Assembly: GCA_005239475.1 (NCBI GenBank)
Contig: SPAX01000007.1
Location: forward strand, 9,254 to 50,140
Reading direction: 5' to 3'
Length of the DNA: 40,887 bases
Source of the DNA: Nitrospira sp.
Lineage (GTDB): Bacteria > Nitrospirota > Nitrospiria > Nitrospirales > Nitrospiraceae
Below, in pieces: positions 4,066 through 33,500 of this stretch. Each line of letters begins with the position of its first letter. Position 1 is the stretch's first letter. The notes under the pieces are model-generated. The model saw nothing but the letters and a program-made list of their open reading frames with translations, had not been told where the DNA came from and did not search any database. The translations under genes were made by a program, and so were the position numbers.

Positions 4066-4945
4066 TTTCGATCGGGTTGGGAATGCGAGGACCGCGGTTC
4101 CTGGCCTCGCTGGTGCCATGCCGTCAGGAAGTACGCAAGACGCGACGCGCCCGGCCATTGCTACCGTCAACCGAGACTTCTACGACTCTCTCTGGTCGGC
4201 GAGTGATGTGACCCTGCCGCAGCGCTTCAACACCTGGCCGCTGCTCTCCGCACTTGCAGCTTCAGCACCGGCGAGACTCGAAATCGGCCCAGGCCTGCGC
4301 CCAAGACTTCCCATCGCCGGCACGAACTTCGTCGAAATCAGCCAACCATCTCTGTCTCCCTTGAGGGCCCGTGGCGGCCTTGCGACGCTCGGCGAGATTA
4401 CCGCCCTGCCATTCCCCGACTGCAGCTTTGACCTGGTCTGCGCCTTCGACATCGTCGAGCACATCGAGGATGATCGGCAGGCCTTTCGCGAGCTCCGCCG
4501 GGTTGCGAAGGACGATGCGACAGTCATCTTTTCGGTACCTCTGCATCCAGCGCGTTGGAGCGCCTTCGACGCCCTTGTGGGTCACGCTCGACGCTATGAC
4601 CCTGACGATCTCCTGGCCATCCTCGGAGAGCATGCCTTCGTGCTGGAGCAGAGCGCCGCCTTCGGCATGCAGCCCCGGAGCGGCTGGCTCCTCGACTTCG
4701 CCGTGTGGGGCCTGACTCACCGGCGGGTACAGGCGATGCGCTGGTACAACGGGCTCTTTCTACCCCTCGGGCTGTTCCTACAGAAGCGCCTGGCCTGGGT
4801 GTCTGGCCTGATCGACGTCTCAAACGTAGACGAACTCCTGCTCGTCTGCCGGCGTGGTGGCCGGCAGAAATGTAAGGTTTCCAGTGAGGACCTCAGGAAT
4901 GAGTCTAAGGAGGCGCCTGACATGGCCAAGAAATATACGGTGTAG
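4037..4945 (+). CDS. Class I SAM-dependent methyltransferase
   Basis: ARLEIGPGLRPRLP, ALPFPDCSFDLVCAFDIVEHIEDDRQAFRELRRV; overlaps the preceding ORF by 29 nt. Confidence 0.75.
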   Translation: MSRIISTERNFDRVGNARTAVPGLAGAMPSGSTQDATRPAIATVNRDFYDSLWSASDVTLPQRFNTWPLLSALAASAPARLEIGPGLRPRLPIAGTNFVEISQPSLSPLRARGGLATLGEITALPFPDCSFDLVCAFDIVEHIEDDRQAFRELRRVAKDDATVIFSVPLHPARWSAFDALVGHARRYDPDDLLAILGEHAFVLEQSAAFGMQPRSGWLLDFAVWGLTHRRVQAMRWYNGLFLPLGLFLQKRLAWVSGLIDVSNVDELLLVCRRGGRQKCKVSSEDLRNESKEAPDMAKKYTV

Positions 4946-4963
4946 AAGAAAGAGAGCTTAAAA

Positions 4964-6166
4964 ATGCCTGTTGAACTGGGTGAGATGCAAGCCAAGATTA
5001 AGAAATTGAAGTCGAAGGCGAGTGACACGTCAGGTATGGCGGAGACCGAGATGCACCGGAAGGCCGAGGACCTAAAAAAGCAACATAAGCACTGGGTTTT
5101 GTCACGATCTCCCTCTGAGCAGTCGAATGGATCGCTATTCCTCCGCCACATGCGTGCACAAACCGCCCTGCAGTGGCACTTCACTATCGATGTGGACTGG
5201 GTCCCCGGGTCCGAGGTCGGGCTGGAACGCTTGCTGGATTTCTGTGATCGGTGGAAGCTGAAGGCCACGATTTTTGTTGCCGGACGGTTTGCGGAAACCT
5301 ATGCGGATCTGATCAGAGATTGTCGGCGGCGAGGGCACGAACTCGGCACGCATGGCTGGGAACACGGTGGCCTCGAGAAGGACGAGGATTTCAGGTCGGC
5401 CAGTTATGACCAGCAGCGAGCATGGATCCGGCTGGCCACGGAGGCCGTGGAGAACGCCTCAGGGGTTCGCCCCGTCATCTTCCGCGCACCGAGCTTGTGG
5501 ATCGGCGAAACGACCTTGCGCGCGCTCGAAGACGAGGGATACCTCTACGACTCATCCGTGCCGGCACGGCGATTTGATTGCGGCTTCGGTCGGGTGCATT
5601 ACCTGAAATACTTTCGTGCTCCGAGTGAGCCGTACCGCCTCTCGTCATCCCACCTGCGCCTGCCGGGACACAGTTCGCTCATCGAGATGGCCCCCTCAGC
5701 GTTCCTGTTCCCCATCAACATGGCTACGCTTCGAGTACTCGGTCTATCAGTGATGAAGTGGATGGTTCGCCGGATCTCCCGACGTGCTTCGCGGCTGGTG
5801 TTCTATTGCCACCCGCACGAATTCGTGCATGCCCATCGGCAATCCTTCCCATGCAACATGTCCAAATGGAATATGCAAGGCATGGGGCCGGAGAATTTCT
5901 CTCCCCTTGACGCATTCGTCGAACACATGATGCGGCAAGGATGTTCTGCCAGCCTGTTTGCGGACTCGTTTAGCAACGCGCGTGGTTTATGGTCTAACGC
6001 GCCTGCGGATACGCGACTTCCGTCCGATGCGATCGATGCCGTCCATGCGCACGGGACCTCACTCCCGCAAGGGCTGTCGCGGAGACCCATGCCGGCACAC
6101 ATGTCTTCAGGCACCGATGGGGCGACACGTCGATCGATTCATTGTGAGGTCCCCAGTCAGCTTTGA
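4964..6166 (+). CDS. Polysaccharide deacetylase (NodB-like), with an atypical charged N-terminal extension
   Basis: FTIDVDW..KATIFVAGRFAE..GHELGTHGWEH..RPVIFRAPSLWIGETTLRALEDEGYLYDSSV; the core domain begins around residue 60. Confidence 0.75.
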   Translation: MPVELGEMQAKIKKLKSKASDTSGMAETEMHRKAEDLKKQHKHWVLSRSPSEQSNGSLFLRHMRAQTALQWHFTIDVDWVPGSEVGLERLLDFCDRWKLKATIFVAGRFAETYADLIRDCRRRGHELGTHGWEHGGLEKDEDFRSASYDQQRAWIRLATEAVENASGVRPVIFRAPSLWIGETTLRALEDEGYLYDSSVPARRFDCGFGRVHYLKYFRAPSEPYRLSSSHLRLPGHSSLIEMAPSAFLFPINMATLRVLGLSVMKWMVRRISRRASRLVFYCHPHEFVHAHRQSFPCNMSKWNMQGMGPENFSPLDAFVEHMMRQGCSASLFADSFSNARGLWSNAPADTRLPSDAIDAVHAHGTSLPQGLSRRPMPAHMSSGTDGATRRSIHCEVPSQL

Positions 6167-6297
6167 GACCTCGCCTGTCTGTACATGGTAAACTAAAGTG
6201 CCTTCACCGCCTGCCAGAATGATCGACCAGAGCTGATCCGCTGTGCTGTTGAGATTCTTGATTCCCATCCTCCCCGATTGTCACAGCCAAGAACCAC

Positions 6298-6540
6298 TTA
6301 CCGAGTCATGCTTGTCCCCACTCTGTGCGGCCGTCCGGTGTATTGAGGCCCTGTCGGTGGCCTTGCGCGCGGCCGTGCCGACCCAGGGCCCCTCCCTCGG
6401 TTGGCCAGGATGTCGCGATCCACGCAGTCGCCGCAGTTGACACAACGCCACAGCGTCACCGGATTGCCGGCGACGTCCCGCTCCAGGGACGCCATGTAGC
6501 TGAGGACCAGTAACCCGCCGCAGCGCAGGCAGGATGCATC
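6298..6540 (-). CDS. Small zinc-ribbon-like protein; 5' end approximate
   Basis: Upstream-extended frame reads DASCLRCGGLLVLSYMASLERDVAGNPVTLWRCVNCGDCVDRDILANR: paired CxxC motifs. Confidence 0.5.
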   Translation of the reverse strand, partial: DASCLRCGGLLVLSYMASLERDVAGNPVTLWRCVNCGDCVDRDILANRGRGPGSARPRARPPTGPQYTGRPHRVGTSMTR

Positions 6541-6652
6541 AGGCGGAGTCCACGACTGGTTGCGCGGTTTCCTCTCCCGGTCCGGTGTTCGACGGGAAGC
6601 GTCGGGCAGAACGGGGGAGAGAAGTCGATGTTCAGAGAACAGGCGAACAGGA

Positions 6653-6946
6653 TCATGGCGACGTTCCGATCTCCCGGAAGTACTGCCTCGTCGTTTCCTG
6701 GGCCTTCGTGAAACATGTCAGACAGTAGGTGTGTGTGTGAGCGATCTCGGTCGGATTCACGCCATGAGTCGTGCGATACGTCCGCGGCGTGACCCAGCGT
6801 TCACGATCAGGGGAAGATCCGGTCTCGTCTCGAATGAGCCCGCAGACGCAACAGACAGGGAGCATTGTCGGTGCGATGAACGTCTCCCTCATCGGAGGGG
6901 AAAGCGACTCACGAGTTGTCTGAGCGACTACGTTTCCAAGAGCCAT
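6653..6946 (-). CDS. Small Cys-rich protein, paralogue 1
   Basis: MRETFIAPTMLPVCCVCGLIRDETGSSPDRERWVTPRTYRTTHGVNP..YCLTCF; strongly similar to 7397-7729. Confidence 0.6.
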   Translation of the reverse strand: MALGNVVAQTTRESLSPPMRETFIAPTMLPVCCVCGLIRDETGSSPDRERWVTPRTYRTTHGVNPTEIAHTHTYCLTCFTKAQETTRQYFREIGTSP

Positions 6947-7043
6947 ACGCCACCTCTTTTATTTTTATTTATCTGCCAGACAAGCCCTTCCTGAGGATCG
7001 AGCAGGTACTCATGGACTACAAGGCCGTCATAGCGTGGGCAGG

Positions 7044-7400
7044 TCATCGTCGAGACTCCACAGGCATTGACTGAGGGGCTTGTGAGGGACGGCTGTTCAC
7101 CCGAGCCGGGGTCGTGAGCGGGGCCGGACCCAGCCCTTCCATACGAGTCGTGCCACGGGAAGTTGAAGCGCTGAGGCGGAGGAGGGCTTGTCCATCCTCG
7201 AGACCGCATTGATAGCGGGTAAACTGAGACCGGTGTTCTCCTCGCATGAAATCTATCCGATCTCTGCAACCCAAGGCATCCACGAGACCGGCTTCCTCTG
7301 CCCGCCAGCCTGCGCGTTCATCCGGCGTGACCGATTGGAGTTGTTGCTGAAGCCGGCACCATTGGATGCGTGAGATGATCTGGGTGAATGCGTACTTCAT
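7044..7400 (-). CDS. Hypothetical protein
   Basis: MKYAFTQIISRIQWCRLQQQLQSVTPDERAGWRAEEAGLVDALGCRDRIDF; ATG at 7400 with upstream GGAGG. Confidence 0.5.
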   Translation of the reverse strand: MKYAFTQIISRIQWCRLQQQLQSVTPDERAGWRAEEAGLVDALGCRDRIDFMRGEHRSQFTRYQCGLEDGQALLRLSASTSRGTTRMEGLGPAPLTTPARVNSRPSQAPQSMPVESRR

Positions 7401-7729
7401 GGTTCCCTCCTGTGCACGGTGTGGCGTCTCGGGTATTGGCGAGAAGCGGTAACTCTTCCAGAGGTACTGCTCACTGTACCCATGACCTTCGTAAAACATT
7501 TCTGACAGTAGCTGTGCGTGAGAGCGACCTTGTCCGGATTCACGCCATGGGTCTGTCGATAGGTCTGCGGCGTCACCCAGCGCTCGCGATCAGGGGAGGA
7601 TCCGGTCTCGTTTCGAATGAGCCCGCAGACACAACAGATGGGGAGCAGTGTCGGTGCGATGAACGTCTCCCTCATCGGAGGGGAAAACGCCTCACGAGTT
7701 GTCTGAGCGGCCAGTGTTTCAAGAGTCAT
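7397..7729 (-). CDS. Small Cys-rich protein, paralogue 2
   Basis: MRETFIAPTLLPICCVCGLIRNETGSSPDRERWVTPQTYRQTHGVNP..YCQKCF. Confidence 0.6.
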   Translation of the reverse strand: MTLETLAAQTTREAFSPPMRETFIAPTLLPICCVCGLIRNETGSSPDRERWVTPQTYRQTHGVNPDKVALTHSYCQKCFTKVMGTVSSTSGRVTASRQYPRRHTVHRREP

Positions 7730-8703: not shown

Positions 8704-11700
8704 ATGAACGACACAACGACGCTCCCCTCCCGCAAAAAGTCACCGTCCTCGGCCACGCTGAGCCATGGCAAGCCCGCCAGGCGGAAAGCGGTGCGCGTTT
8801 CCGCAGAGGATACCGCGCAGGTTCGTTCGCGGATGATTCTCGCGGCGATGACGGCGTATCGCGATGGAGATTTCTCGGTGCGGTTGCCGGCGGCTGATTG
8901 GGCGGAGACGGATGGGCAGATTGCGGAGGCGTTCAATCAGACCATCGCGCATACGCGGCGCATCTCGGGGGAGGTCACGCGGCTGAGCGAGACGGTGGGC
9001 AAGGAGGGGCGGCTGAAGCAGCGCATGTCGATGCCGGGGGCGCGCGGCGGGTGGGCGGAGTCGGTGGTTTCCATCAATACGCTCGTCGACGATCTGGTGC
9101 GGCCGACAACGGAAATCGCGCGGACCATCGGCGCCGTAGCCAAGGGCGACCTCGGACAGTCGATGGAGCTGGAAGTAGATGGGCACGAGCTCAAGGGCGA
9201 GTTTTTGCGCTCCGCGAAGCTGGTGAACGCGATGGTCGATCAGCTCAACAGTTTCGCCTCGGAAGTGACGCGCGTGGCGCGCGAGGTCGGCACCGAAGGC
9301 AAGCTCGGCGGCCAGGCGCAGGTGCCCGGTGCCGCCGGCACGTGGAAGGGTCTCACCGAATCGGTGAACTTCATGGCTTCCAACCTGACCGGCCAGGTGC
9401 GCAACATCGCGGTCATCACGACGGCGGTGGCCAACGGCGATCTGTCCAAGAAGATCACCGTCGACGTGAAGGGGGAGATGCTCGAACTGAAGAACACCGT
9501 CAACACGATGGTGGATCAACTGTCGTCGTTCGCCGGCGAGGTGACGCGCGTGGCGCGCGAAGTCGGCACTGAAGGCAAGCTGGGACCTGACCGGCCAGGT
9601 GCGCAACATCGCGGTCATCACGACGGCGGTGGCCAACGGCGATCTGTCCAAGAAGATCACCGTCGACGTGAAGGGGGAGATGCTCGAACTGAAGAACACC
9701 GTCAACACGATGGTGGATCAACTCAACGGCTTTTCCGCTGAAGTCACGCGCGTGGCGCGCGAAGTCGGTACCGAAGGCAAGCTCGGCGGCCAGGCGCAGG
9801 TGCCCGGTGCCGCCGGCACGTGGAAGGATCTCACCGACAACGTCAACCTACTCGCCGCCAACCTCACCACACAGGTGCGCGCCATCGCCGAGGTCGCCAC
9901 CGCCGTGACCAAGGGTGACCTCACGCGCTCCATCCAGGTGGAGACCCGCGGCGAGGTGGCCGAGCTGAAGGACAACATCAACACGATGATTTTCAACCTG
10001 TGGCAAACCACCGAGAGCAACCGCGAGCAGGACTGGCTCAAGACCAACCTCGCTAAATTTGCCGGCATGCTCCAGGGCCAGCGTGAGCTGAACACCGTGG
10101 GGCAGATGCTCCTCACCGAGCTGGCGCCGCTGCTCAATGCCCACCAGGGCACCATCTACCATCTCACCGGCAGCACCGGCGATTCCACGCTCACGTTGCT
10201 CGCGAGCTACGCGCACGGCGGAGGCGGGCCACTCATCGAGAAGATCCGCCTCGGCGAGGGCCTCGTCGGCCAGTGCGCGGTGGACAAGAAGCGCGTCCTG
10301 CTCACCAATGTGCCGCCTGATTTTCTCTCGATCTCCTCCAGTCTCGGCGAAGCGCGGCAGATGAGCATCATCGTGCTGCCCGTGCTCTTCGAGGGGCAGA
10401 CCAAGGCCGTCATCGAGCTGGCCTCGCTCCAGAGCTTCGGCGCCGGTTCTCTCGCATTCCTCGAACTGCTCACCCAGAGCATCGGCACGGTCTTCAATAC
10501 CATCGAGGCGACGATGCGCACCGAGAGCTTGCTCGAGCAATCGCAGCAGCTCACCGTCGAGCTGCAGTCTCGCCAGAGCGAGCTCCAGCAGACCAATGAG
10601 CAGCTGGGCACCAAGGCCAAGCTGCTCGCAGAGCAGAACGCCGAGGTCGAGCGCAAGAACGCCGAGGTCGAGCAGGCCCGCCTCGCGCTCGAGGGAAAAG
10701 CCGCCGAACTGGCGCTCACTTCCAAATACAAGTCCGAGTTCCTCGCGAACATGTCCCACGAGCTGCGCACGCCGCTCAATTCCATCCTCATCCTCAGCCA
10801 GCAGCTCGCCGGCAACGCCGGGGGCAACCTCTCGGACAAGCAGGTCGAGTTTTCCCAAAACATCAACTCCTCCGGCTCCGACCTCCTCGACCTCATCAAC
10901 GACATCCTCGATCTCTCGAAAATTGAGTCCGGCACCGTCACCGTCGACGTCGAGGAAATCCTCTTCACCGGCCTGCGCGACACCATCGACCGCAACTTCC
11001 GGCACGTGGCCGAGGCCAAGAACCTGCCGTTCGACGTGCAGTTCGCCGAGGACCTGCCGCGCTCCCTGGACAGCGATCCGAAGCGCCTCCAGCAAATCCT
11101 CAAAAATCTCCTGTCCAACGCCGTCAAGTTCACCACCCACGGCCACGTCAAGGTTCGCGTCAGTCTCGCCACGCAGGGCTGGAGCCTCGATCACCCGGTG
11201 CTCAGCGGTGCGCAACAGGTGATTGCCTTTGCCGTCGAGGACACAGGCATCGGTATCGCGCCGGAGAAGCGGCGGCTCATCTTCGAGGCCTTCCAACAGG
11301 CCGACGTCGGCACGTCCCGCAAATACGGCGGCACCGGACTCGGGCTCCCCATCAGCCGTGAGTTGGCCATGCTGCTCGGTGGCGAAATCAAGCTCGCGAC
11401 CGTCTACGGGCAGGGCAGCACGTTCACGCTCTTTCTGCCGCAGTACTACCCCGACCCCGACAGTAAGAGGGCCTTCAGGACCGCCGGTACCGTGGGCGAG
11501 TCGCCGAGGGTCCAGGCGCTCACGGTCCTGCCCGTCGCGCACGAAGAGCACATCGAGGACGATCGCCACGCCATCAAGGAGGGCGACCGAGTGCTGCTCA
11601 TTATCGAGAACCACGCGCATTACGCCCGCATTCTCCTCAACCTGGGGCGCGCCAAGGGCTTCAAGGGCATCGTCGCCACCAGAGGCGCGGCGGGCCTTAC

Positions 11701-19925: not shown

Positions 19926-20319
19926 TGTTCGTCCCTCCTTCTCGATGAATGTGTGCCTTGACGACGCCCCTCGTGGCCCTGAACCCTGCCACCATACTGG
20001 CCAGGTTGACCAGGAACGATCGGCTCGAACCCTGCACCGTCTCATGGACCCGTTGCACGGTGTCGCCCAGTGCCCCCGCCGCATGCAGCAGCACTGCCGC
20101 ATGCTCGACCCCACCCCGCGCATGCTCGACGAGCGCGTTCAGATTCTCCGTCGTCGCCCGCATCTCCTTGAGCAACAACGGCAGCTCGGCGTTCATGCGG
20201 ACCAATAGGTATTCCGATTCCGCCACCGGTTTCCTGAGTTGTATCAACAGAGGAGCCAGCAAGCCGACCAGCACCGCCAACGCCCCTGCCCCCACACACA
20301 GGGCAATCTCGACAATCAT
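19915..20319 (-). CDS. DUF948-like membrane protein
   Basis: MIVEIALCVGAGALAVLVGLLAPLLIQLRKPVAESEYLLVRMNAELPLLLKEMRATTENLNALVEHARGG. Confidence 0.65.
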   Translation of the reverse strand: MIVEIALCVGAGALAVLVGLLAPLLIQLRKPVAESEYLLVRMNAELPLLLKEMRATTENLNALVEHARGGVEHAAVLLHAAGALGDTVQRVHETVQGSSRSFLVNLASMVAGFRATRGVVKAHIHREGGTNNGG

Positions 20320-20365
20320 AAGACTCCTCCTCCGCTATCAGGTGTCAGGCCCTCCACGTGCCGTC

Positions 20366-20449
20366 TTATCGAAGGACACCGAATGCCCAGAGGACGACGA
20401 GCAACGTGAGCGGAACTCCCAGCAGCCAGAGAATGAACGCTTTTCCCAT
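20366..20449 (-). CDS. 27-aa predicted membrane microprotein
   Basis: MGKAFILWLLGVPLTLLVVLWAFGVLR*, preceded by AGGAGG; below the ORF-track cutoff. Confidence 0.5.
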   Translation of the reverse strand: MGKAFILWLLGVPLTLLVVLWAFGVLR

Positions 20450-20474
20450 AATGGCACCTCCTAATCCTGCCCGG

Positions 20475-21110
20475 CTAACAACCTGGATCATGAGCATGCT
20501 GCGGGCCTAGCTCCTTCAGGAGGCTGGCCAGGTCCTCTGCATGCTCTTCTTCTTGCGCAAGGATCCCCTCCAATACTTTACGAGTCGTGGGATCATCAGT
20601 GCCGACATAGGTGACCATTTCACGATAGCTGTCGATCGCGATCCGTTCGGCAATTAGGTCTTCCGTGATCATCTCCACCAATGAATCCCCTTCGACATAT
20701 TCCGAGTGGCTCCGGCTCAGAAGCCCTTCAGGGGACAGATTCGGCTCCCCCCCCAGTTGGACAATGCGTTCGGCCAATTGATCGGCATGGACTTGTTCCT
20801 CAGTGGCATGTTGGAGAAACTCGCCTTTCACGCTGAGGGAACTGAGCCCGGTGGCCATGAAGTAATGGCGCTTATAGCGAAGGACGCACACGATTTCTGT
20901 GGCGAGGGCGTCATTCAGCAGCTTGACCACCGTCTCCGCTTTGGCCTTGTACCCCGCTGTCATGGCACCGTCCTCAATCCCTTGTCGTGCACGAGCCCGG
21001 AGCGTCTTCACATCAGTCAGACCGATGGCTTCTTTTATGATCTCTTCCTTTCGGGGGGTGCGTGGCGCCGTTGTTCCAGGTTGCACCGTTATCGCTGTGG
21101 CTGCTTTCAT
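20475..21110 (-). CDS. Ferritin-like / bacterioferritin-type protein
   Basis: LLNDALATEIVCVLRYKRHYFMA..EEQVHADQLAERIVQLGGEPN..AERIAIDSYREMV..LEGILAQEEEHAEDLASLL. Confidence 0.85.
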   Translation of the reverse strand: MKAATAITVQPGTTAPRTPRKEEIIKEAIGLTDVKTLRARARQGIEDGAMTAGYKAKAETVVKLLNDALATEIVCVLRYKRHYFMATGLSSLSVKGEFLQHATEEQVHADQLAERIVQLGGEPNLSPEGLLSRSHSEYVEGDSLVEMITEDLIAERIAIDSYREMVTYVGTDDPTTRKVLEGILAQEEEHAEDLASLLKELGPQHAHDPGC

Positions 21111-21178
21111 GATGTCCTCCTGTCGGGGAGTGCCCCCGTTTCTATTGTGTCGAGCACGAGTCGCCCGGGGCTTTCCTG

Positions 21179-21820
21179 TCATCCTCGGGCGGCTTCCATC
21201 AAAGCCGGCTCGCAGAGCTGCAGCCGCTTTTCCACTGACTTCCAATCGATGTTGGCGAAGAACGCCTCGATGTAGGATGCCCTCTCTGAAGGCTTATAAT
21301 CGAGGAGATACGCATGTTCCCACACATCCATGACCAGAGCTGGAATGAAGCCGGCTATATTTCCATTTTCATGCAAACTGATCCAATGATTGGAGAGTCG
21401 GCCGCTGCGTGGATTCAAATAACAAATGGCCCAGCCCACGCCTCGCATCTTCCCCACGCTGGAAAAGTCCAATTTCCACATGTCATAGGTGCCGAAACTG
21501 TCTTCTGCGGCTCTCATAAAAGCAGAGCCTTGATCGGGCTTCTTGGCTCCGCCTTTGTGCAAATTCTCAAAGTAATATTCGTGCAAGACCATCCCGTTGT
21601 ATTCAAACCCTAAGCGTCGCGACAGTTCCGAATAGGCAGGCATTTCCTCCTGATCAATCCGTCCGTCCTTGAGCATCTCTCCAATCTGGGCCGTGAGCTG
21701 GTTCGCGGCCTTCACATATCCCTCATACAGTTTTATATGCATTTCGAGCGTTCGGTCCGAAATCCCGACCAGCCCGTGTAAGTTAAACGGCTTGACGTCG
21801 TAGGAACCTCCCATTGTCAT
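21179..21820 (-). CDS. Fe/Mn superoxide dismutase
   Basis: GFEYNGMVLHEYYFENL; GVGWAICYLNP; PALVMDVWEHAYLLDYKPSERASYIEAFFANIDW. Confidence 0.9.
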   Translation of the reverse strand: MTMGGSYDVKPFNLHGLVGISDRTLEMHIKLYEGYVKAANQLTAQIGEMLKDGRIDQEEMPAYSELSRRLGFEYNGMVLHEYYFENLHKGGAKKPDQGSAFMRAAEDSFGTYDMWKLDFSSVGKMRGVGWAICYLNPRSGRLSNHWISLHENGNIAGFIPALVMDVWEHAYLLDYKPSERASYIEAFFANIDWKSVEKRLQLCEPALMEAARG

Positions 21821-21923
21821 ATGCCATCTCCTGTGTTCCTTTGATTTTTCAGAAGGTCTATCGCCATTTCTTTATGGTCTTCCCTCTATGCCAGAATGTG
21901 TAAACGGCTTCTCCGTCATGACA

Positions 21924-23357
21924 TTAAAGAACGCGTAGAAAGGCCACCAGGTCCTGTTTCTCTTCAGTCGTCAACTGGGTCCCTAACACAACGTTGAAGA
22001 ACTCCACGGTATCCTCTAACGTCAGCAACCTCCCATCATGCAAGTAAGGAGACGAATCCTTGATGCCCCGCAAGGGAAACGTCTTGATGGGGCCATCGGC
22101 GCTCGCCATACGTCCATTGATCATCCGCGGCGTGTAAAAGCGCTCTACTTTCAGGTTGTGCATGGAATTGTCCGTGTAATAGGGCGCCTGATGGCAACCA
22201 GCGCAGGTTGCTTTGCCAAAGAACAGGTCCTGCCCGCGCTTCTCAGCCGCGGTAGATTTTTTGGGATTCAACTTGCCGTCAATCCCCAGCTTGGGTGCCG
22301 GCGGGAAGTCCATGAGCTCCTGGAACTCTGCCATAAAGTGCACCTGGCTACCCCGTTCGAGAATGTTGGCCCCCTTTTTTGTCCCGATCACATGATCGCC
22401 GTCAAAGTAGGCACCGCGCTGCTCAAACTCAGTAAAATCCTCCACGCTCTTCAGCGCCCTCTGCGAGCCGAACAGCCGCTGGATGTACAAGCCGCGCAAC
22501 GTGGGGGTATCAATTCGATGACGGAACTCCTGCGGGCGGATGTCTCCGGCCAAATGGGTACTGGCATTCGTGTGGCCGTTCGCATGACACTCAAAGCAGG
22601 TGACGCCACGGCTAGGACGCACGGTACGACGGTCTTCCGTCTGGTTGAACTGCTGTTGCGGGAAAGTCGTGACGAGCAACCGCAAGCCCTCGAGCTGTTT
22701 TGGATTCAGAATCCCGTTGAAGATTTCATAATAGTTGTCGATGGTCACCAATTTGCCTTGGGACACGTCACCGAGATCGGGCCGTGTCGTCAGGTAGATG
22801 GGGGGCGGGAACTCAGGTAAAAAATGGGCCGGCAGGTCGAATTCCAGGTCGAAGCGAGTGAGATCACGGCCCTCCTGCTTCTGAATTTCCTCGATGTGAA
22901 ACGTGGGGAACACCATCCCACCTTCCGGGTGGTTGGGGTGCGGCAGCGGAAAGAATCCCGCCGGAAACGAATCCGTCCCCCGGATCTCGTCGGGACTCAT
23001 GGCTTGAAGTTTGTCCCAGGTCACTCCATGGGGAAGTGTGACTCGTATCCCTTCCTGGATAGGCTTACCGTTGGACATCGTGACATCTTTGGCCGGGCGG
23101 TTTGCGAGGTCGTACCGCTCCTTGAGTAAATCCATTTGCCGCTTCATGACCTCTGGCTTTGCGGCTGTCATGCGAGCGATGACTACGGCAATGTCCTCCT
23201 TGAGATCAACAGGAGCATAGCTCGTCCCCTTCTGTTGTAATTCTTGCGCGTTCGGTGTCTTCTCTGTGGCCTTGCCAGAAACGGTCACCGGTGCCGCGAT
23301 GAGCGTGGCTCCGACAACCAGAACGGCGCCGAGTGCCATTAGATAGTGAGCCTTCAT
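21924..23357 (-). CDS. Di-haem cytochrome c peroxidase / MauG-like protein
   Basis: Two CxxCH motifs (CFECHANGH, CAGCHQAPYYTDNSMHNL); LRGIKDSSPYLHDGRLLTLEDTVEFFN. Confidence 0.85.
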   Translation of the reverse strand: MKAHYLMALGAVLVVGATLIAAPVTVSGKATEKTPNAQELQQKGTSYAPVDLKEDIAVVIARMTAAKPEVMKRQMDLLKERYDLANRPAKDVTMSNGKPIQEGIRVTLPHGVTWDKLQAMSPDEIRGTDSFPAGFFPLPHPNHPEGGMVFPTFHIEEIQKQEGRDLTRFDLEFDLPAHFLPEFPPPIYLTTRPDLGDVSQGKLVTIDNYYEIFNGILNPKQLEGLRLLVTTFPQQQFNQTEDRRTVRPSRGVTCFECHANGHTNASTHLAGDIRPQEFRHRIDTPTLRGLYIQRLFGSQRALKSVEDFTEFEQRGAYFDGDHVIGTKKGANILERGSQVHFMAEFQELMDFPPAPKLGIDGKLNPKKSTAAEKRGQDLFFGKATCAGCHQAPYYTDNSMHNLKVERFYTPRMINGRMASADGPIKTFPLRGIKDSSPYLHDGRLLTLEDTVEFFNVVLGTQLTTEEKQDLVAFLRVL

Positions 23358-23428
23358 GATCCCCCTCCTCGGCCGTTTACAGCCGCAACATGCGAGTCTA
23401 TGCCCAAGCTAACGATTCCATCCTGTGT

Positions 23429-23450
23429 AGTCTGGTCACAATTGATCAGA
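23429..23450 (-). promoter_or_regulatory. Dyad motif site E (plus strand AGTCTGGTCACAATTGATCAGA)
   Basis: About 70 bp upstream of the peroxidase start. Confidence 0.55.
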
Positions 23451-23688
23451 TGCTCAGAATATTTTTTAAAAATCCCAGTCGTCTGGTCAGTTCGGAACAG
23501 GCCGGCATTTCCTCATGATCCACCTTGCCATCCTTTACGAGATCGAAAATATGTTCATTCAACTTATTTGGTGGCGGTGACATACTCTGCATAGAGGGCC
23601 ATATGCATGTCGACGGTCCGGTCGGAGATCCCTCTCAGTCCATGCAAACTAAACATGTGGGACTTCTTCGTTTCGGGGGCTTAACCAT
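23446..23688 (-). pseudogene. Truncated superoxide dismutase remnant
   Basis: Minus-strand segments FSLHGLRGISDRTVDMHMALYAEYVTAT and LVKDGKVDHEEMPACSELTRRLGF match the intact SOD (FNLHGLVGISDRTLEMHIKLYEGYVKAA / LKDGRIDQEEMPAYSELSRRLGF) across a broken frame. Confidence 0.8.
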
Positions 23689-23700
23689 GATGTCTCCTTG

Positions 23701-23935
23701 TCATAGCCTTTTGGCTATGCCCGCACCCATGTGATCCGATCGTCGGTCGCAGGATGCATGGCGAAGAACCCTCCGGTCCCCACCCCTTAGGCCTGCATCA
23801 GCCACGTCAGCGTGGCCGCCATGATCCGTGTACCATCGCGCCCGATGACCTGGGCGGCGCCTGCGGGCTGTGCTTCGGACAGCCTGCCAGCACAAGGGCC
23901 AGGCAAAGCGCAGGGGCAACGGGGTGCCATGAGAT
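23701..23935 (-). pseudogene. Possible M48-type lipoprotein metalloprotease remnant
   Basis: One frame has lipoprotein-like LALVLAGC; another has MAATLTWLMQA*GVGTGGFFAMHPATDDRITWVRA*, resembling an M48 C-terminus with an in-frame stop. Confidence 0.35.
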
Positions 23936-23977
23936 GGAGGGTTGATTCAGAGGTATGGTCGTGTTTCTCCCCACGGC

Positions 23978-24553
23978 TTAGGATTTCTCCTTCACCGTGA
24001 GATCGTTCTTCACAGACTTCACGCCGGGGACTTGCCAGGTTGTCCAGGACGCTTGGGCACTGGTCGTGATGTCTGCAACCTCACCGGTCAGCGTGACAAC
24101 GCCCGCGTTGGTCTGAACATTAATATCGGCCTCCTTGAGACGCGAGTCCTTCATCAGATGCGAATCCTTCGAGATGTGCTCTTTGACGCGTGCCGTAATG
24201 GCCTCATCCTTCTCCTCCACCGCGTCGCGTGTAGACGGGGCGACGACTTGGAGTTCGTTTTTCACCGTCTTGACGCCATCGAGTCCTGCGGTGATCCCCT
24301 CCGCCGCACGCTTCGCCGTGTCGGAATCGACCTTCCCGCGGAGCACCACCCGACCCTCTGTGGTCTCGACTTCGATCTGTCTTCCTTTGACCCGGGAGTC
24401 GGCAGCGAGGGCGATCTTGGTTTTCGCCGTCAGCCACGAGTCGTTGACCAGCGCCTTCTCTTTGGATACGTCAAGGGCAGTGGCCGGCACTGCGATGAGT
24501 ACTGCTCCGACAACCAAAGCGGTGCAGAGCGTGACCGAATAGTGTGTCTTCAT
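23978..24553 (-). CDS. Secreted double-BON-domain protein
   Basis: NDSWLTAKTKIALAADSRVKGRQIEVETTEGRVVLRGKVDSDTAKRAAEGI; second BON INVQTNAGVVTLTGEVADI. Confidence 0.85.
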   Translation of the reverse strand: MKTHYSVTLCTALVVGAVLIAVPATALDVSKEKALVNDSWLTAKTKIALAADSRVKGRQIEVETTEGRVVLRGKVDSDTAKRAAEGITAGLDGVKTVKNELQVVAPSTRDAVEEKDEAITARVKEHISKDSHLMKDSRLKEADINVQTNAGVVTLTGEVADITTSAQASWTTWQVPGVKSVKNDLTVKEKS

Positions 24554-24616
24554 GATCTTCTCCTTAACTGAATTGTGAACTTACTCAGTGATCCATCTCT
24601 TCTTGATGACTTTTCC

Positions 24617-24880
24617 TCAGCGCGTCTTTTCCTTCGTGGCTTCCAGCTGGGACCGCTGCTGCCACTGGTCCGCCCACTTCATGAGTTCCTCTTTCTTCTC
24701 GCCGTACCGCTCCCGGGCCAAGCTGACACAGTTACCACCGTACCGTTCCTGAAGCATGCCGATAATCTTGTCGAAGCTCCCTTCGATTTGCTGCAAGTCA
24801 TTATCGACGAACTTCCCCCATTGCTGCTTCAGTTCGCCTTTGAACTGCATCCATTTCCCCTTGAGTTAATCCACATTCAT
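24617..24880 (-). pseudogene. CsbD-family protein with TAA at codon 5 and a 13-aa in-frame insertion
   Basis: Minus strand ATG AAT GTG GAT TAA CTC AAG GGG AAA TGG ATG (MNVD*LKGKWM); intact paralogue at 29658-29885 reads MNADQLKGKWM. Confidence 0.75.
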
Positions 24881-24990
24881 GGGTTCCTCCTCCTGTGTGA
24901 GATGGCCCCACCTCACTCCTCGTACCGATCTGGCTCCATCATTCAAAAATTCCCCCCAGTGCGAGCCAGTATGGCGAGAAGACCGGCAGC

Positions 24991-25012
24991 GGTCTGGTCA
25001 AAATTGCTCAGG
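24991..25012 (-). promoter_or_regulatory. Dyad motif site F (plus strand GGTCTGGTCAAAATTGCTCAGG)
   Basis: About 110 bp upstream of CsbD copy 1. Confidence 0.6.
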
Positions 25013-25848
25013 GTGGGAGAATTAATGAGGGATGAGCCGGACAAGCGGTGTCATATCTGCCGGCTCTATTCAACGAAGAGAACCCGTCCGACATTGCACT
25101 CCGGCGGTGGTTCTGGTCACTGCCGAGTCGCAATCGAGGTCATATCATCAGAAACATTTCAAAAGAGCAGCTCACAGACTGGAGCAGAATGAATGGCCGC
25201 CGCGCGAAGCTGTTGGTCCGACAGGTCCAGAGTTGGGTCTCACCCTGTACTCTTGCCGCACCGGAACCCGCGAAACCAATCGGCACCACCGACCAGATTC
25301 AATCCATGATCGACCGAGCCTTCCACCGAAGACCTCCGCATCATCGTTGCTATGCATGTCGACAAATTGGTCCTTGCAGGTCTGTGGGTCCCATGCATTC
25401 TGAACAATCTCCGGAAACCAAACCCGGCGACGGCACTTCTCCAGGCGTACAAACCCTATCCGTGGGGAATCCGTGACATCCATGATAAGATTGGAATCTG
25501 CATCGACAGGAACACTGTCCCCAAATGAGAGAATTTCTGGGTCTATCACGTAGGCCGCGCGTTGGAGCAACAGGTGCTAGGACGAGATGTTCTATCGGTA
25601 TAGGAGGATTTTCTTGGGCAAGCTCACAGTGCCTCTGTTAGCGAGCGGCCTATTCTCAATAGGATTCGGCAGCGAATCGCCCAACCTCGTGCCCACTTCA
25701 CGCCGCAAGACCGAGGGGTCAGTGTGGCGCCGGTTTCCTCAAGCGCACAATCCACCGTGCCTAAAGACGCCTACTAAATTCCCACTCACCCGCTCGTCTC
25801 GTTCCTAGCCTAGGGGCTCGTCGCCAGAAAAACAAAGAAATTTCCGCG

Positions 25849-25868
25849 GTCTGGTCAAAATTGCTCAG
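25849..25868 (+). promoter_or_regulatory. Dyad motif site G (GTCTGGTCAAAATTGCTCAG)
   Basis: 68 bp upstream of the ATG at 25936; duplicated at +1159 and +2318. Confidence 0.6.
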
Positions 25869-25935
25869 ATCGCAAGACTCCGGAGAGCGTACATTTACTT
25901 GTATACGTGTTTTACATCTAACCGAGGAGGCTCCC

Positions 25936-26298
25936 ATGGTATCTATTTCCAAAATTGTCGGTGTCCTGTCGTGTGGTTTCTTGCTGTGCCTGGGTCTGTC
26001 GAATGTCGCGTCGTCTGCAGACGAGCTCAACACTGGCCAATCTGATAAGAAGATGTTTGCCGTGTCGGATAAAGACGACTTTCAAGCCGGCAAGGAGGTC
26101 AAGGGCGAAGTGATGCGCGTCGATGGTGAGAACTATGTCGTCAGAGAGGGCACTGGAAATGAGGTGCGCATTCATGTTGACGCCACAACTGAAACGAGAT
26201 CAACATTAAAGGCTAAACCGGGAGATCGTGTTATTGCGAAAGTGAACGCAAAGGGTCACGCAATTTCGTTTCTAACGGACCAACCTATCGCCCACTGA
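25936..26298 (+). CDS. Small secreted protein, copy A1
   Basis: MVSISKIVGVLSCGFLLCLGLSNVASSADE; GAGGAGG RBS; mature region VKGEVMRVDGENYVVREGTGNEVRIHVDATT. Confidence 0.75.
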   Translation: MVSISKIVGVLSCGFLLCLGLSNVASSADELNTGQSDKKMFAVSDKDDFQAGKEVKGEVMRVDGENYVVREGTGNEVRIHVDATTETRSTLKAKPGDRVIAKVNAKGHAISFLTDQPIAH

Positions 26299-26358
26299 CG
26301 CTCCTCTCGAATCAGCAAGAGGGCCCAACGGGGTAGTAGCAGGTAATTGTCTTAGTGA

Positions 26359-26399
26359 GAGTCGGCAGGATGGTTCTGCATTGGACCATCTGCCGACTC
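26359..26399 (+). terminator. Strong hairpin downstream of copy A1 (possible terminator, no clear T tract)
   Basis: GAGTCGGCAGGATGGT-tctgcattgg-ACCATCTGCCGACTC; same structure in the second unit at about 27518-27558. Confidence 0.5.
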
Positions 26400-27007
26400 C
26401 GACTAGGTGCCGTTCTGATACACACGAGTCAGAGGCCATCGCTGCCGGTGTGCCGGAGAGGTTCAAGCAGCGGGAGTGATAGATTTAGTGGCGCGAGCGG
26501 TGCGCCTCCAGGTGCTAGCCGGTCGATCAATGCCGAGGCTACGACACGAATACGACCGCATACAGCACAAATTGTTTTCTCCAGAACTTTGAACTATCCG
26601 CGTCATAGAAGTGAACTTGGAGTGATCGAATTGGTGGGTGACTAGCTGCGATCGCCTGGGTCCGCTCCTTCAATTGACGATTAGGGGACGAGTCGGGGTC
26701 GCCATACAGACTCACGAAGAGCTGTGAACGGGGACTCTTTTCAATCAGGCGCAAGACATGTTCATCATGGCGTACAGTTCCGTCGCGCCCTGGGTGTCTC
26801 GCATGCGGCACGAAATTGGGTGATTCGCTGCCGAATCTTATTGAGAAAGGACCAACTCACGTCGCAGGACCGAGGGGTCAGTGTGGCGCCGGTTTCCTCA
26901 AGCGCACAATCCACCGTGCCTAAAGACGCCTACTAAATTCCCACTCACCCGCTCGTCTCGTTCCTAGCCTAGGGGCTCGTCGCCAGAAAAACAAAGAAAT
27001 TTCCGCG

Positions 27008-27027
27008 GTCTGGTCAAAATTGCTCAG
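27008..27027 (+). promoter_or_regulatory. Dyad motif site H (GTCTGGTCAAAATTGCTCAG)
   Basis: Duplicate of site G. Confidence 0.6.
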
Positions 27028-27094
27028 ATCGCAAGACTCCGGAGAGCGTACATTTACTTGTATACGTGTTTTACATCTAACCGAGGAGGCTCCC

Positions 27095-27457
27095 ATGGTA
27101 TCTATTTCCAAAATTGTCGGTGTCCTGTCGTGTGGTTTCTTGCTGTGCCTGGGTCTGTCGAATGTCGCGTCGTCTGCAGACGAGCTCAACACTGGCCAAT
27201 CTGATAAGAAGATGTTTGCCGTGTCGGATAAAGACGACTTTCAAGCCGGCAAGGAGGTCAAGGGCGAAGTGATGCGCGTCGATGGTGAGAACTATGTCGT
27301 CAGAGAGGGCACTGGAAATGAGGTGCGCATTCATGTTGACGCCACAACTGAAACGAGATCAACATTAAAGGCTAAACCGGGAGATCGTGTTATTGCGAAA
27401 GTGAACGCAAAGGGTCACGCAATTTCGTTTCTAACGGACCAACCTATCGCCCACTGA
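27095..27457 (+). CDS. Small secreted protein, copy A2 (identical to A1)
   Basis: Identical translation, offset 1159. Confidence 0.75.
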   Translation: MVSISKIVGVLSCGFLLCLGLSNVASSADELNTGQSDKKMFAVSDKDDFQAGKEVKGEVMRVDGENYVVREGTGNEVRIHVDATTETRSTLKAKPGDRVIAKVNAKGHAISFLTDQPIAH

Positions 27458-28166
27458 CGCTCCTCTCGAATCAGCAAGAGGGCCCAACGGGGTAGTAGCA
27501 GGTAATTGTCTTAGTGAGAGTCGGCAGGATGGTTCTGCATTGGACCATCTGCCGACTCCGACTAGGTGCCGTTCTGATACACACGAGTCAGAGGCCATCG
27601 CTGCCGGTGTGCCGGAGAGGTTCAAGCAGCGGGAGTGATAGATTTAGTGGCGCGAGCGGTGCGCCTCCAGGTGCTAGCCGGTCGATCAATGCCGAGGCTA
27701 CGACACGAATACGACCGCATACAGCACAAATTGTTTTCTCCAGAACTTTGAACTATCCGCGTCATAGAAGTGAACTTGGAGTGATCGAATTGGTGGGTGA
27801 CTAGCTGCGATCGCCTGGGTCCGCTCCTTCAATTGACGATTAGGGGACGAGTCGGGGTCGCCATACAGACTCACGAAGAGCTGTGAACGGGGACTCTTTT
27901 CAATCAGGCGCAAGACATGTTCATCATGGCGTACAGTTCCGTCGCGCCCTGGGTGTCTCGCATGCGGCACGAAATTGGGTGATTCGCTGCCGAATCTTAT
28001 TGAGAAAGGACCAACTCACGTCGCAGGACCGAGGGGTCAGTGTGGCGCCGGTTTCCTCAAGCGCACAATCCACCGTGCCTAAAGACGCCTACTAAATTCC
28101 CACTCACCCGCTCGTCTCGTTCCTAGCCTAGGGGCTCGTCGCCAGAAAAACAAAGAAATTTCCGCG

Positions 28167-28186
28167 GTCTGGTCAAAATTGCTCAG
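28167..28186 (+). promoter_or_regulatory. Dyad motif site I (GTCTGGTCAAAATTGCTCAG)
   Basis: 68 bp upstream of the ATG at 28254. Confidence 0.6.
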
Positions 28187-28253
28187 ATTGCAAGACACCG
28201 GAGAGCGTACATTTACCTGTATACGTATTTTACATCTAACCGAGGAGGCTCCC

Positions 28254-28652
28254 ATGGTATCTATTTCCAAAATTGTCGGTGTCCTGTCGTGTGGTTTCTT
28301 GCTGTGCCTGGGGCTGTCCAACGCGGCGCAGGCGGAGCATGCGCCCGGGCCCTCAGACGTTATGAAAACTGATTCCGTAACCGACCGGCAAGGTTTTCAA
28401 TCTGATGATGACAAGCAAAAGAACGTGGACAATGAGAAGGGAAGTAATAGCACAGAAGGCGCCAAGACGATCAAGGGCGAACTGTTCCGCGTCGAAGACG
28501 GGAACTATTTCGTCAAGGTGAAGGGCGGCAAGGAAATACGTATGCATACAGATAAAACTACCCAGATGATAGGAGAAATCAAGAAGGGTGATCGTATTGA
28601 GGCGAAGGTGAACGAGCAGAATCACGCGCTGTCGATCCGCTCGGCGAAATGA
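28254..28652 (+). CDS. Small secreted protein B, divergent paralogue with near-identical leader
   Basis: Same signal peptide MVSISKIVGVLSCGFLLCLGLSN; divergent mature part IKGELFRVEDGNYFVKVKGGKEIRMHTDKTTQ. Confidence 0.75.
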   Translation: MVSISKIVGVLSCGFLLCLGLSNAAQAEHAPGPSDVMKTDSVTDRQGFQSDDDKQKNVDNEKGSNSTEGAKTIKGELFRVEDGNYFVKVKGGKEIRMHTDKTTQMIGEIKKGDRIEAKVNEQNHALSIRSAK

Positions 28653-28873
28653 AGGACTGATGCCGGTCACGGAAATGAAGCCGGTCGTACGACTGACTCC
28701 ACTCTCGAATCAAGCAAGACCTGTTTGATGGGACAGTAGTCATTGTCTCAGTGAACGCCTGCAGGACGCTAGGTCATATGGAGCGACCTGCCAACTCTTT
28801 GAGCCATGCCGTGGAAACGGATCACACAGAAATCTCTATCCCGCCATTACAAGACAAGGAGAGCGGAATACCC

Positions 28874-29407
28874 ATGACCGGTCAAACGCAGACTCCTGAC
28901 CGCGTATGGTCGATCGTCTTGGCAGGGAGTAAGGGACATGCCCCTCTCCTTCTCGCCTGCGCATTGCTCGCAGCAGCTTGCGCCAAGCCGGCGGATCATC
29001 GAGATGTGTCGATGGATTCTCTTCATCCATCGATGGCGTTTCAGGCCGGAGACCGCCATGTTCTCGCCGGTGAGTGGGAATATGTTGACGGCGCTGCTGT
29101 CCTGCTGATACTCGACGAGCAGGGCAACGGTCACTATGATTGGAAAGACGGGCGATTCGAGACGCACACGCTCATCGGTCAGACCTGGCAGGGCATGTGG
29201 TTTCAGAAGGAGAATGATCGAGATGGTAGATTTACGGTCGAGTTCTCGCCGGATTTTTCAGACGGGGAGGGGCGCTGGTGGGTCAGCCGCATCGGAGCCG
29301 ACCATGCACCCGCGCAAAAGGGCGGAACGTTTCATCTCTCCAAGAAGACTGCTCTTATAAACCTCAGCGATACTTCACCGGTACCATGGAAGCTTCTCAC
29401 GCCATAA
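28874..29407 (+). CDS. Putative lipoprotein
   Basis: APLLLACALLAAAC lipobox; LAGEWEYVDGAAVLLILDEQGNGHYDWKDGRFET. Confidence 0.6.
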   Translation: MTGQTQTPDRVWSIVLAGSKGHAPLLLACALLAAACAKPADHRDVSMDSLHPSMAFQAGDRHVLAGEWEYVDGAAVLLILDEQGNGHYDWKDGRFETHTLIGQTWQGMWFQKENDRDGRFTVEFSPDFSDGEGRWWVSRIGADHAPAQKGGTFHLSKKTALINLSDTSPVPWKLLTP

Positions 29408-29595
29408 CCAATGATCGGCAGGGAACCTCTGACTCGACCATCGGCAGCGAGGGCGATCTTGGTGTTCGCCGTGAGCCACGTGTCGTTGTTCGGGGTCTTT
29501 TCGTCGGCGTTGCCCAGCGCGTGCACCGATCCGGTGAGGAGTGCCCCACCGACAACCAGAGCCGTGCAGAGTGTCAGTACATAGCGTGTGTTCAT
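29332..29595 (-). pseudogene. Truncated BON-domain protein
   Basis: MNTRYVLTLCTALVVGGALLTG..NDTWLTANTKIALAADGRVRG matches the intact BON protein to AADSRVKG, then runs into unrelated sequence antisense to the 28874-29407 gene. Confidence 0.8.
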
Positions 29596-29657
29596 ACTCG
29601 TCTCCTTACCCGAAATGTAAAAGTATGTCGTCAGACGTCTTCGTGAGTTGCATCTAT

Positions 29658-29885
29658 TCAGTGGGGCTTCTTATCCACGGCTTTCGGCGCTAACTGCTGA
29701 TACCACTGGTCCGCCCATTTCATGAGCTCATCCATATTATCGCCATGCCGTTTCTGGGCTTTGCCGAGAAACTTGTCATAATTCCCTTCGATCTGCTGCA
29801 AGTCGTCATCGGTAAACTTGCCATACTTCTCTTTCAGTTCGCCTTTGAACGGCATCCATTTCCCCTTGAGTTGATCCGCATTCAT
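29658..29885 (-). CDS. CsbD-family stress protein (intact copy)
   Basis: MNADQLKGKWMPFKGELKEKYGKFTDDDLQQIEGNYDKFLGKAQKRHGDNMDELMKWADQW. Confidence 0.85.
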   Translation of the reverse strand: MNADQLKGKWMPFKGELKEKYGKFTDDDLQQIEGNYDKFLGKAQKRHGDNMDELMKWADQWYQQLAPKAVDKKPH

Positions 29886-29994
29886 GGATTCCTCCTCCTG
29901 TGTGAGATGGCGCCGCCTCACTCCTCGTACCGATCTGGCCTCGTCATTCATCATCTTCCCCCTACGAGCCTGTATGGCGGGCGGACCGGCAGCG

Positions 29995-30015
29995 GTCTGG
30001 TCAGAATTGCTCAGG
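29995..30015 (-). promoter_or_regulatory. Dyad motif site J (plus strand GTCTGGTCAGAATTGCTCAGG)
   Basis: About 110 bp upstream of CsbD copy 2, matching the site F geometry. Confidence 0.6.
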
Positions 30016-30184
30016 TGGGGAGAATTGATCCGGTAGCAGCTTGGCGCCGCCTACTCGCTTGTGCGACTAGATTGGATCCTAGGCCTCACTCTTTCAGAAA
30101 TGTTGGCAGGATCTTCTGCTGGAGAGGGTGGGTGGTGCGTGACGCTAGCGGGCTTCGAAAGAACTATGTTGGCACCTAGACGGG

Positions 30185-30345
30185 CGGGACGGGTTCATCT
30201 GGTTTGGTTTGTTTCGTTCATTTGGTTTGTCTCGTTCAACCAAACAAACCAAATAGACTAGATAAACAAGAGAAACCATCCGGGTCTCGCGCTTCAGCGC
30301 CACGGTCTGTGGCGCTGACGAACTTTTTCAGCATTCTTCGGGGAC
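30185..30345. repeat. GT/AC-rich palindrome copy 3 with adjacent right-end-like sequence
   Basis: ggttcatctggtttggtttgtttcgttc...ctcgttcAACCAAACAAACCaaatagac; followed by gacgaactttttcagcattctt. Confidence 0.55.
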
Positions 30346-30423
30346 ATCGAGATTCTCGCTCCCGCTAGGGCTGGCAGTGTGGGTGTGGTCTTGAGACCAC
30401 CGGGCGACTCGGCAGGTCGTCAT
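30328..30423 (-). CDS. Candidate 31-aa microprotein
   Basis: MTTCRVARWSQDHTHTASPSGSENLDVPEEC* with AGAAGGAGG upstream and motif site K about 82 bp further upstream. Confidence 0.3.
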   Translation of the reverse strand: MTTCRVARWSQDHTHTASPSGSENLDVPEEC

Positions 30424-30504
30424 GGTGCCACCTCCTTCTAGCTCAGGGTGACGGCCGGGAAGAGTGTCAGACTCTGGTCTCAGTATGGCGAGAAGACAGC
30501 GTGT

Positions 30505-30525
30505 AGTCTGGTCAAAATTGCTTGG
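30505..30525 (-). promoter_or_regulatory. Dyad motif site K (plus strand AGTCTGGTCAAAATTGCTTGG)
   Basis: One half matches fully, the other is degenerate. Confidence 0.45.
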
Positions 30526-30564
30526 CGTTGAGAAATGTAATGAATTGTGGCGTGTCCTTCTGTG

Positions 30565-33500
30565 TTAACTGTTTGCGGCCTGTATCTTCACTTCAACCGT
30601 GTGCTCCTGATGGTCGTCCACAAGAGGAATAGTCTTATCGTGTTGCTCGACGCCATCGACAGTCACGCTCGTCTCGCCGTTCCCGGCGCTGACTTGTAGG
30701 ACGTTGATATGGTAGAGCGTTTCCCGGTATCGGTAGTGCAGCGTGAACCCCTTCCAATTCGCAGGGAGGCACGGAGCCACGCGTAGCTTGTCTACTTCCA
30801 GCCTCAACCCGAGGAGTGATTCTACAATAAGCCGGTACATCCAGCCTGCCGAGCCCGTATACCACGTCCATCCCCCGCGGCCGGTGTGCGGCGAAAGCGC
30901 GTAGACATCGGCTGCGATCACGTACGGTTCTACTTTGTAGGTCTCGATCCCCTCCGGAGATCTCGCATGGTTTACCGGGTTGATCATGGCCAACAGTTCC
31001 CACGCACGTTGTCTGTCTCCTAATGCGGCGAACGCCATCGCCGCCCAGATTGCCGCATGCGTATACTGCCCCCCATTTTCTCGCACCCCCGGGACGTACC
31101 CTTTGATATAGCCAGGATTCAAATTTGACTTATCGAACGGTGGATCCAACAGTTGGATCAGCGCATGGTCCCGGCGAACAAGGCGCCGATCCACCGCGTC
31201 CATGGCCATGCGTGAGCGCGTGGCATCCCCCGCCCCGGAGAGAACCGACCAGCTTTGCGCAATCGAATCGATCTGGCATTCGGGATTACTTGCCGACCCA
31301 AGTGGCGAGCCATCGTCGAAGTAGGCCCGGCGATACCACTCTCCATCCCAGCCATGCTGCTCGATATTCTGGCGCACGTCAGCCGCCTCCCTCTGACAAC
31401 GTTCAGCGAAGGACAGGTCGCCTCGCATGCGTGCAACCTTCGTAAACTGCATGAGCACGTCATACAGGAAAAATCCCAACCAGATGCTCTCGCCTTTGCC
31501 TTCTTCGCCGACCATATTCATGCCGTCGTTCCAGTCACCGGAGCCGATGAGTGGGAGGCCGTGCTCCCCACGTGTGAGGCCCTTCAGGATGGCTCGCACA
31601 CAGTGTTCGTACAAACTGGCCGCTTTTTCAGACCGGCCGGGCAGATCGTAATACGCGTCCTCCTCCTGGTTGACCGGACGGCCTTCGACGAAGTGGATGG
31701 GTTCATCCAAGACCCCGCTATCCCCTGTGCTCAGTACGTAGCGGCATGTCGCCAGGGGCAGCCAGAGGTAATCATCCGAACAGTGCGTACGCACGCCCCG
31801 GCCTGAGGGGGGATGCCACCAGTGCTGGACATCGCCTTCCTGAAACTGTCGGGCTGCGGACATCAGAAGATGCTTGCGCACAAGATGCGGCTCGGTGTGG
31901 ATGAGCGCCATCGAATCTTGCAGTTGATCGCGGAAACCGAAGGCGCCCCCCGATTGATAGTATCCGCTCCGCGCCCACAGACGGCACGCGAGCGTTTGGT
32001 ACAAGAGCCAGCCGTTGGTCAGCATGTTCAGTGACTGGTCTGGCGTCTCCACATATACGGCACCGAGTGTGTGCTTCCAGTACTGCCACACCGCTTCGAG
32101 CGCGCCGCGTGCGGCAGCAGATCCTCGGAAGCGATGTATCGACTGTCTGGCCTCATCGACGTTTCGCCCGACACCGAGCCTAAAGATCATCTCACGCTCT
32201 TGTCCGGCGGCCAGTTCGAATGGAACGTGGATTGCGGTGCAGGGATCGAGACCGGCCCCCACTTTGCCCGACAGCCGCAACCGGCTCATCGCGGCCGGAT
32301 TGCGAAGCGTGCCGTTGCGCCCGATAAACTCAGTCCGGTCGCCGCTGATGGTCCGAGTCGTCTCGTCCACGTCAAAGAAGGCCATCCGCCCGGCGAACTC
32401 CGTGTGATAGGGATTTCTCGCGAAGACCGCACCGCTCTTGGGGTCCAGTTCGGTCACGACGTGCATCACCGATTTTGGCCGCAGATCTCCCAGCACCCAT
32501 TCCACGTAACCCGTCGCGGACAGCTTGCGCGATCGGCCTGACTCGTTCCGCACCTTGAGCACCATGAACTTAATCGGTGCATCCAAGGCCACATACACCC
32601 ACAGCTCTGAGTGGATGCCGCGCTCCGTATGCTCGAAGACGCTATAGCCGAAGCCGTGCCGGCTGACGTACGGTGTCGTGCCGCGGCTGGGCAGTGGCGT
32701 GGGGGACCAGAAGTGGCCCCTTTCTTCGTCACGAAGGTACAAGGCTTCTCCGCTCGTATCGCTCACCGGGTCGTTGTGCCACGGAGTGAGGCGGAATTCG
32801 TGGGCGTTCTCGCTCCAGGTGTAGGCCTGACCGTTCTCCGAGATGACGGTGCCAAAGTGCGGATTCGCCAGTACGTTCACCCACGGTGCCGGCGTCACAT
32901 GCCCCTGTGCGGTCGTGATGACATACTCGCGGCCATCAGGCGTGAATCCTCCCAGCCCGTTGAAGAACCTAAGATCGTGGCGCGGCAACGCAGCGGATGG
33001 CAAGGGTTCGGCGCGGCGGGTTCGGGTTGGCGTCAGGCGCGGCACGGTGACGTCCACATGGCCGCGGCGGGTGATCTGGTCCGCCAGCGATCCCCGATTG
33101 TCGGTGAGAATGGCACGGGCGACCGATTGCAGCAGAATGCGGTCCTCGTTCGATATCTGGTCCGAAGGACGCACGAAGATGCCGCCCGGTCGATCCATCA
33201 CGTGTGCTTCGAGGCCCGCGGCAATCAACCCCATGATTTGTTCGTGGAGTAATTGCCGATAACCGGCGTGATCTTCGTTCCAGATCACCAGGTCCACGGC
33301 CAACCCCTTGGAGCGCCAGTACGCGTGGGCCTGTACGAGCTGGCGCACCAGATCGATATTGGCCAGATCGCCGATCTGCAGCAGCACGATCGGCAAATCG
33401 CCGGAAATGGCGTAGCCCCAGAGCCCGGATTGCCCGCGGCGGTTTTTGATCAGATCGCTCGGATCAGCCCGCAGAGAGGAATTGGCGTAGAGGACAGAGC

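Follow-up and report, generated by a model that had tools for sequence, protein, structure and literature searches.

The window, i.e., the whole stretch of 40,887 bp of Nitrospira sp. DNA that was analysed, contains an array of two identical 1159-bp units, each with a leader, gene A and a spacer, followed by a third leader copy and then by gene B (Table 1). Compared with itself at an offset of 1159, the window has an uninterrupted identical run of 1321 bp (25709-27029), that is, 1159 + 162 bp, and a second run of 85 bp (27069-27153); at an offset of 2318, the identical runs are 162 bp (25709-25870) and 85 bp (25910-25994) long. The perfect 1159-bp tandem duplication proposed in an earlier, sequence-only reading of this DNA is borne out, as the units are identical without mismatch over the 1321 bp at that offset. 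No longer exact repeat occurs in the roughly 930 kb of the genome that were examined (the window and 891 kb of sampled sequence); the second longest measures 624 bp, and an exact repeat of 1321 bp is far beyond chance.

The 162-bp block is exact in all three leaders, and their flanks are shared in two different combinations. To the left of the block, leaders 2 and 3 are identical at 103 of 103 bp, and leader 1 is 38% identical to either; to the right, leaders 1 and 2 are identical, and leader 3 first differs at 25871, 25879, 25899, and 25909. With a left side 100% identical to that of B and a right side 100% identical to that of A, leader 2 is a B-left/A-right chimera, as had been recognised earlier. 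The crossover segment had also been located correctly, its extent being 162 bp (25709-25870) rather than about 157 bp (25711-25867).

Table 1. Features of the A-A-B array and its surroundings (coordinates of the window)
Feature	Position	Strand	Basis or remarks
Protease-TPR 3' remnant upstream of A copy 1	25544..25777	+	last 69 bp inside shared block; stop TAA 25775-25777
Leader block copy 1, A-left/A-right	25709..25870	+	exact self-comparison
Dyad motif TGGTCAAAATTGCTCAG in leader 1	25852..25868	+	
Gene A copy 1, 120-aa predicted secreted protein, signal peptide and predicted OB-fold domain	25936..26298	+	
Spacer of unit 1	26299..26867	+	dispersed repeat, DUF4917-like remnant, locally inverted protease-TPR fragments
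90-aa ORF like C-terminal end of DUF4917	26539..26811	-	Pfam E=3.8e-5, weak, below gathering score
Leader block copy 2, B-left/A-right chimera, duplication junction	26868..27029	+	self-comparison and flank identities
Gene A copy 2, same as copy 1	27095..27457	+	self-comparison
Spacer of unit 2, same as spacer 1	27458..28026	+	exact run reaches 28188 in copy-2 coordinates
Leader block copy 3, B-left/B-right	28027..28188	+	exact self-comparison
Gene B, 132-aa paralogue of A, same signal peptide, diverged mature part	28254..28652	+	
Dyad motif sites	673, 1241, 2238, 18051, 23433, 24995, 25852, 27011, 28170, 29998, 30509, 39943		

Gene B, thought earlier to have nothing but the leader in common with A, also encodes the same signal peptide (97% identity over 66 nt of this part) and is a paralogue of A (45% amino acid identity), the mature parts being paralogous as well. 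Pfam and NCBIfam searches with A and B returned no family above cut-off and only weak OB-fold-like matches. A fold model of A, computed from three aligned sequences, had a pLDDT of 62 and included a confident strand-rich domain (approximately 51-116) resembling the OB folds of IF-1 and CusF; this domain may be an OB fold, the name being tentative because the overall confidence of the model is low. Members of the family are found close together in other genomes as well (G030:C226 and G006:C26).

The leader block is not intergenic throughout. Its first 69 bp (25709-25777, TAA-ended) form the 3' end of a protease-TPR gene that has decayed, and the remainder is intergenic, which leaves the "shared promoter" of the earlier reading incomplete as a description. 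The remnant upstream of the first A is 74% identical in amino acid sequence to the tail of the intact gene in contig C35 (tblastn). The protease-TPR gene has a longer reading frame in this contig, which belongs to the same genome, and in locus L056; it is intact in locus L034 and decayed in the window. An Rfam search (E<=0.1) over 20000-31000 gave no match.

Several elements were found in the spacers. First, the 90-aa DUF4917-like ORF is a probable pseudogene remnant. Second, both spacers hold a copy of a dispersed repeat, about 130 bp long and intergenic (26422-26553 and 27581-27712). Contigs C214, C175, and C190 carry further copies, and so do other genomes, one of which belongs to a different genus of the family. 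This repeat can fold as a hairpin with almost no covariation and, as only 1 of 28 pairs is compensatory, we make no claim of a structured RNA. Finally, short inverted repeats near the unit edges are locally inverted pieces of the protease-TPR gene.

Each leader carries the dyad motif TGGTCAAAATTGCTCAG, which occurs at 12 sites in the window with up to three mismatches, the reversed control yielding none. At up to one mismatch, 12 of the 14 sites in the whole genome fall on this contig. The motif is also present in several genomes of the same genus, often paired on one contig, and it resembles an operator for a local regulon. A Crp/Fnr-like regulator gene with a cyclic-nucleotide domain and a Crp-type HTH (1432-2079, forward strand) is itself flanked by the motif; its reading frame is interrupted within the HTH and resumes in a different frame, which makes the gene either a pseudogene or a sequence error.

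The arrangement in related genomes was as predicted by the earlier reading, i.e., A-B without a second A. G007 and G025 have A followed by B, with one A each, and in G027 a single A precedes a spacer 84% identical to the one here and then a truncated B-type leader with a broken gene. The single A of these relatives agrees with a recent duplication in the lineage considered here.

The identity of the A and B leaders, which had been taken as given, is itself a product of homogenisation in this lineage. In the tree of mature parts, A of this genome groups with A orthologues (support 100/100) and B falls inside the B-type group (94/96). The tree of the leader and signal-peptide part, on the other hand, pairs A and B of this genome (92/85 with 15 rows, 81/76 with 11 rows), a moderate level of support, and a forced split into A leaders and B leaders was rejected by the AU test (p=0.036). 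The leader and mature-part trees are thus in the conflict by which converted and unconverted parts of a gene are told apart. Identity between the A and B leaders is 26-33% over the first part and 74-75% before the start codon in G007 and G025, compared with 100% and 96% here; given this far lower likeness in the relatives, homogenisation in this lineage would have come first. Up to 26001, A and B differ at six positions, none of which falls within the 162-bp block. With an even spread the chance of this would be 0.0075, a figure that describes the pattern but is no clean test of it, the block having been picked for being identical. By these comparisons, the likeness of the leaders is specific to this lineage and probably arose by gene conversion; it would be explained by conversion before the crossover or by repair during it. 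Alternatively, the stretch of 162 identical bp within flanks of 96-97% identity could reflect the merging of similar repeats by the assembler.

We consider that there is about an even chance of a real duplication by recombination between the A and B leaders. The ancestor would have had leader A, gene A, spacer, leader B, and gene B, like the relatives. Once the two leaders had become nearly identical, probably through the gene conversion to which the trees point, they could have supplied the homology for crossover. The exchange would then have taken place within the identical 162 bp, between leader A on one sister copy and leader B on the second, presumably by recombination of the RecA type, duplicating the 1159-bp A unit and leaving the chimeric leader before the second A. 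Such an event would be recent, since the 1321 bp are free of differences. Chiefly, it would be expected to add a gene copy with an unchanged leader and hence to raise the dosage of this small protein, which is predicted to be secreted and to have an OB fold. With two 1321-bp repeats, the array should also be prone to further gain or loss.

The features by which recombination between direct repeats is recognised are present here, namely, the 162-bp block before both A and B, the chimeric junction, and the unduplicated form in relatives. The locus resembles known cases of unequal homologous recombination between bacterial direct repeats in its flanking repeats, identical units, chimeric junction, and single copy in relatives. 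However, the repeats here lead two paralogous genes rather than being rRNA operons or insertion sequences, and the duplication is a putative one, read from assembled sequence. Similarly, as in the concerted evolution of tandem paralogues, the A and B leaders are closer to each other within the genome than to their orthologues, and the mature parts follow orthology; here, however, the effect is limited to the leader and signal-peptide part, and the tree support is moderate. Literature searches yielded background of a general kind and no account of this locus.

The main competing explanation is an assembly artefact, in which the assembler went twice round a loop formed by the A unit, the cell itself carrying A-B with a single A; it has a considerable probability, which we place below one half. 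Since 162 bp exceeds many assembly word lengths, the leader would have formed a single node with two ways in and out, and the repeat structure is exactly that of a loop walked twice. The genome is a draft of 289 contigs, 90% complete, with N clusters, and the relatives have one A. Exact tandem repeats, surveyed in 891 kb of the genome sampled by region, were found at the start of contig C246 (348 bp), at two other contig starts (295 and 80 bp), beside an N cluster in C255 (347 bp), and in the interior of C57 (601 bp). Two control stretches from G019 and G024 (a small sample of approximately 400 kb) contained two such repeats, 127 and 81 bp long, and none near 1 kb. The C246 repeat is probably an assembly error, and so the assembly can contain false tandem repeats. 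On the same contig as the A duplication, an array of HAMP repeats in a histidine kinase gene is frameshifted at a 139-bp repeat. Yet most of the doubtful repeats in the draft sit at contig ends or at the edges of N clusters, whereas the A duplication, which has the same pattern as the repeat-loop duplications of draft assemblies, is interior, the closest N cluster of its contig being some 13 kb away; this position mildly favours a real duplication. The interior 601-bp duplication in C57 has a shared edge of only 23 bp, which a loop would not easily produce. No fixed contig-end overlap length that would reveal the assembler word size was found.

These and other repeats have some features of their own. 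In C246 of this genome (L085, 1-696), the exact in-frame 348-bp repeat doubles 116 codons within a gene recognised by eye as larB-like. The perfect 601-bp duplication in C57 (L133, 6445-7669) has its edges in repeat-like GC-rich sequence, and the unit is apparently a hicA/hicB-like gene pair, also judged by eye. The end of contig C18 (L074, approximately 4900-7600) folds back in an imperfect inverted repeat, a probable assembly artefact. In the window, the 139-bp exact repeat (9383-9723) lies in the HAMP-repeat part of a hybrid histidine kinase at an offset of 202, which is not a multiple of three and entails a frameshift, making a misassembly possible.

It is improbable that the sample was mixed, with one A unit in some cells and two or more in others, in an array that readily gains and loses units. 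Long direct repeats recombine readily, and the clustering of family members in other genomes fits this explanation, but the single consensus sequence shows no mixture. Least probable is that a mobile element duplicated the unit, or that site-specific recombination acting on the dyad motif did so: the motif in each leader and the short inverted repeats near the unit edges would fit it, but the motif is also found at many unduplicated sites, the inverted repeats are fragments of the protease-TPR gene, and no transposase or recombinase was recognised in the searched ORFs of the unit. A transposon origin of the unit was rejected, with no transposase in these ORFs and with the unit edges lying inside the shared leader.

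Whether real or artefact, the kind of event is ordinary. If real, the A-A-B array is a fresh duplication whose junction can still be read, and it shows how gene amplification can start from leaders that have been homogenised between paralogues; if artefact, it is a clear example of a draft assembly imitating a duplication. The clustering of the dyad motif and, unless the leaders were merged by the assembler, the conflict between leader and mature-part trees do not depend on the reality of the duplication. More broadly, the leader/signal-peptide module of a secreted OB-fold family might be kept alike by recurrent recombination as the mature parts diverge, so that the local dyad-controlled stress-gene cluster could rapidly gain or lose copies of its members; we regard this generalisation as unlikely. 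An A orthologue (78% identity) is also located behind a protease-TPR gene in L056, on a contig titled Pyrinomonadaceae MAG SH2 that is probably mis-binned.
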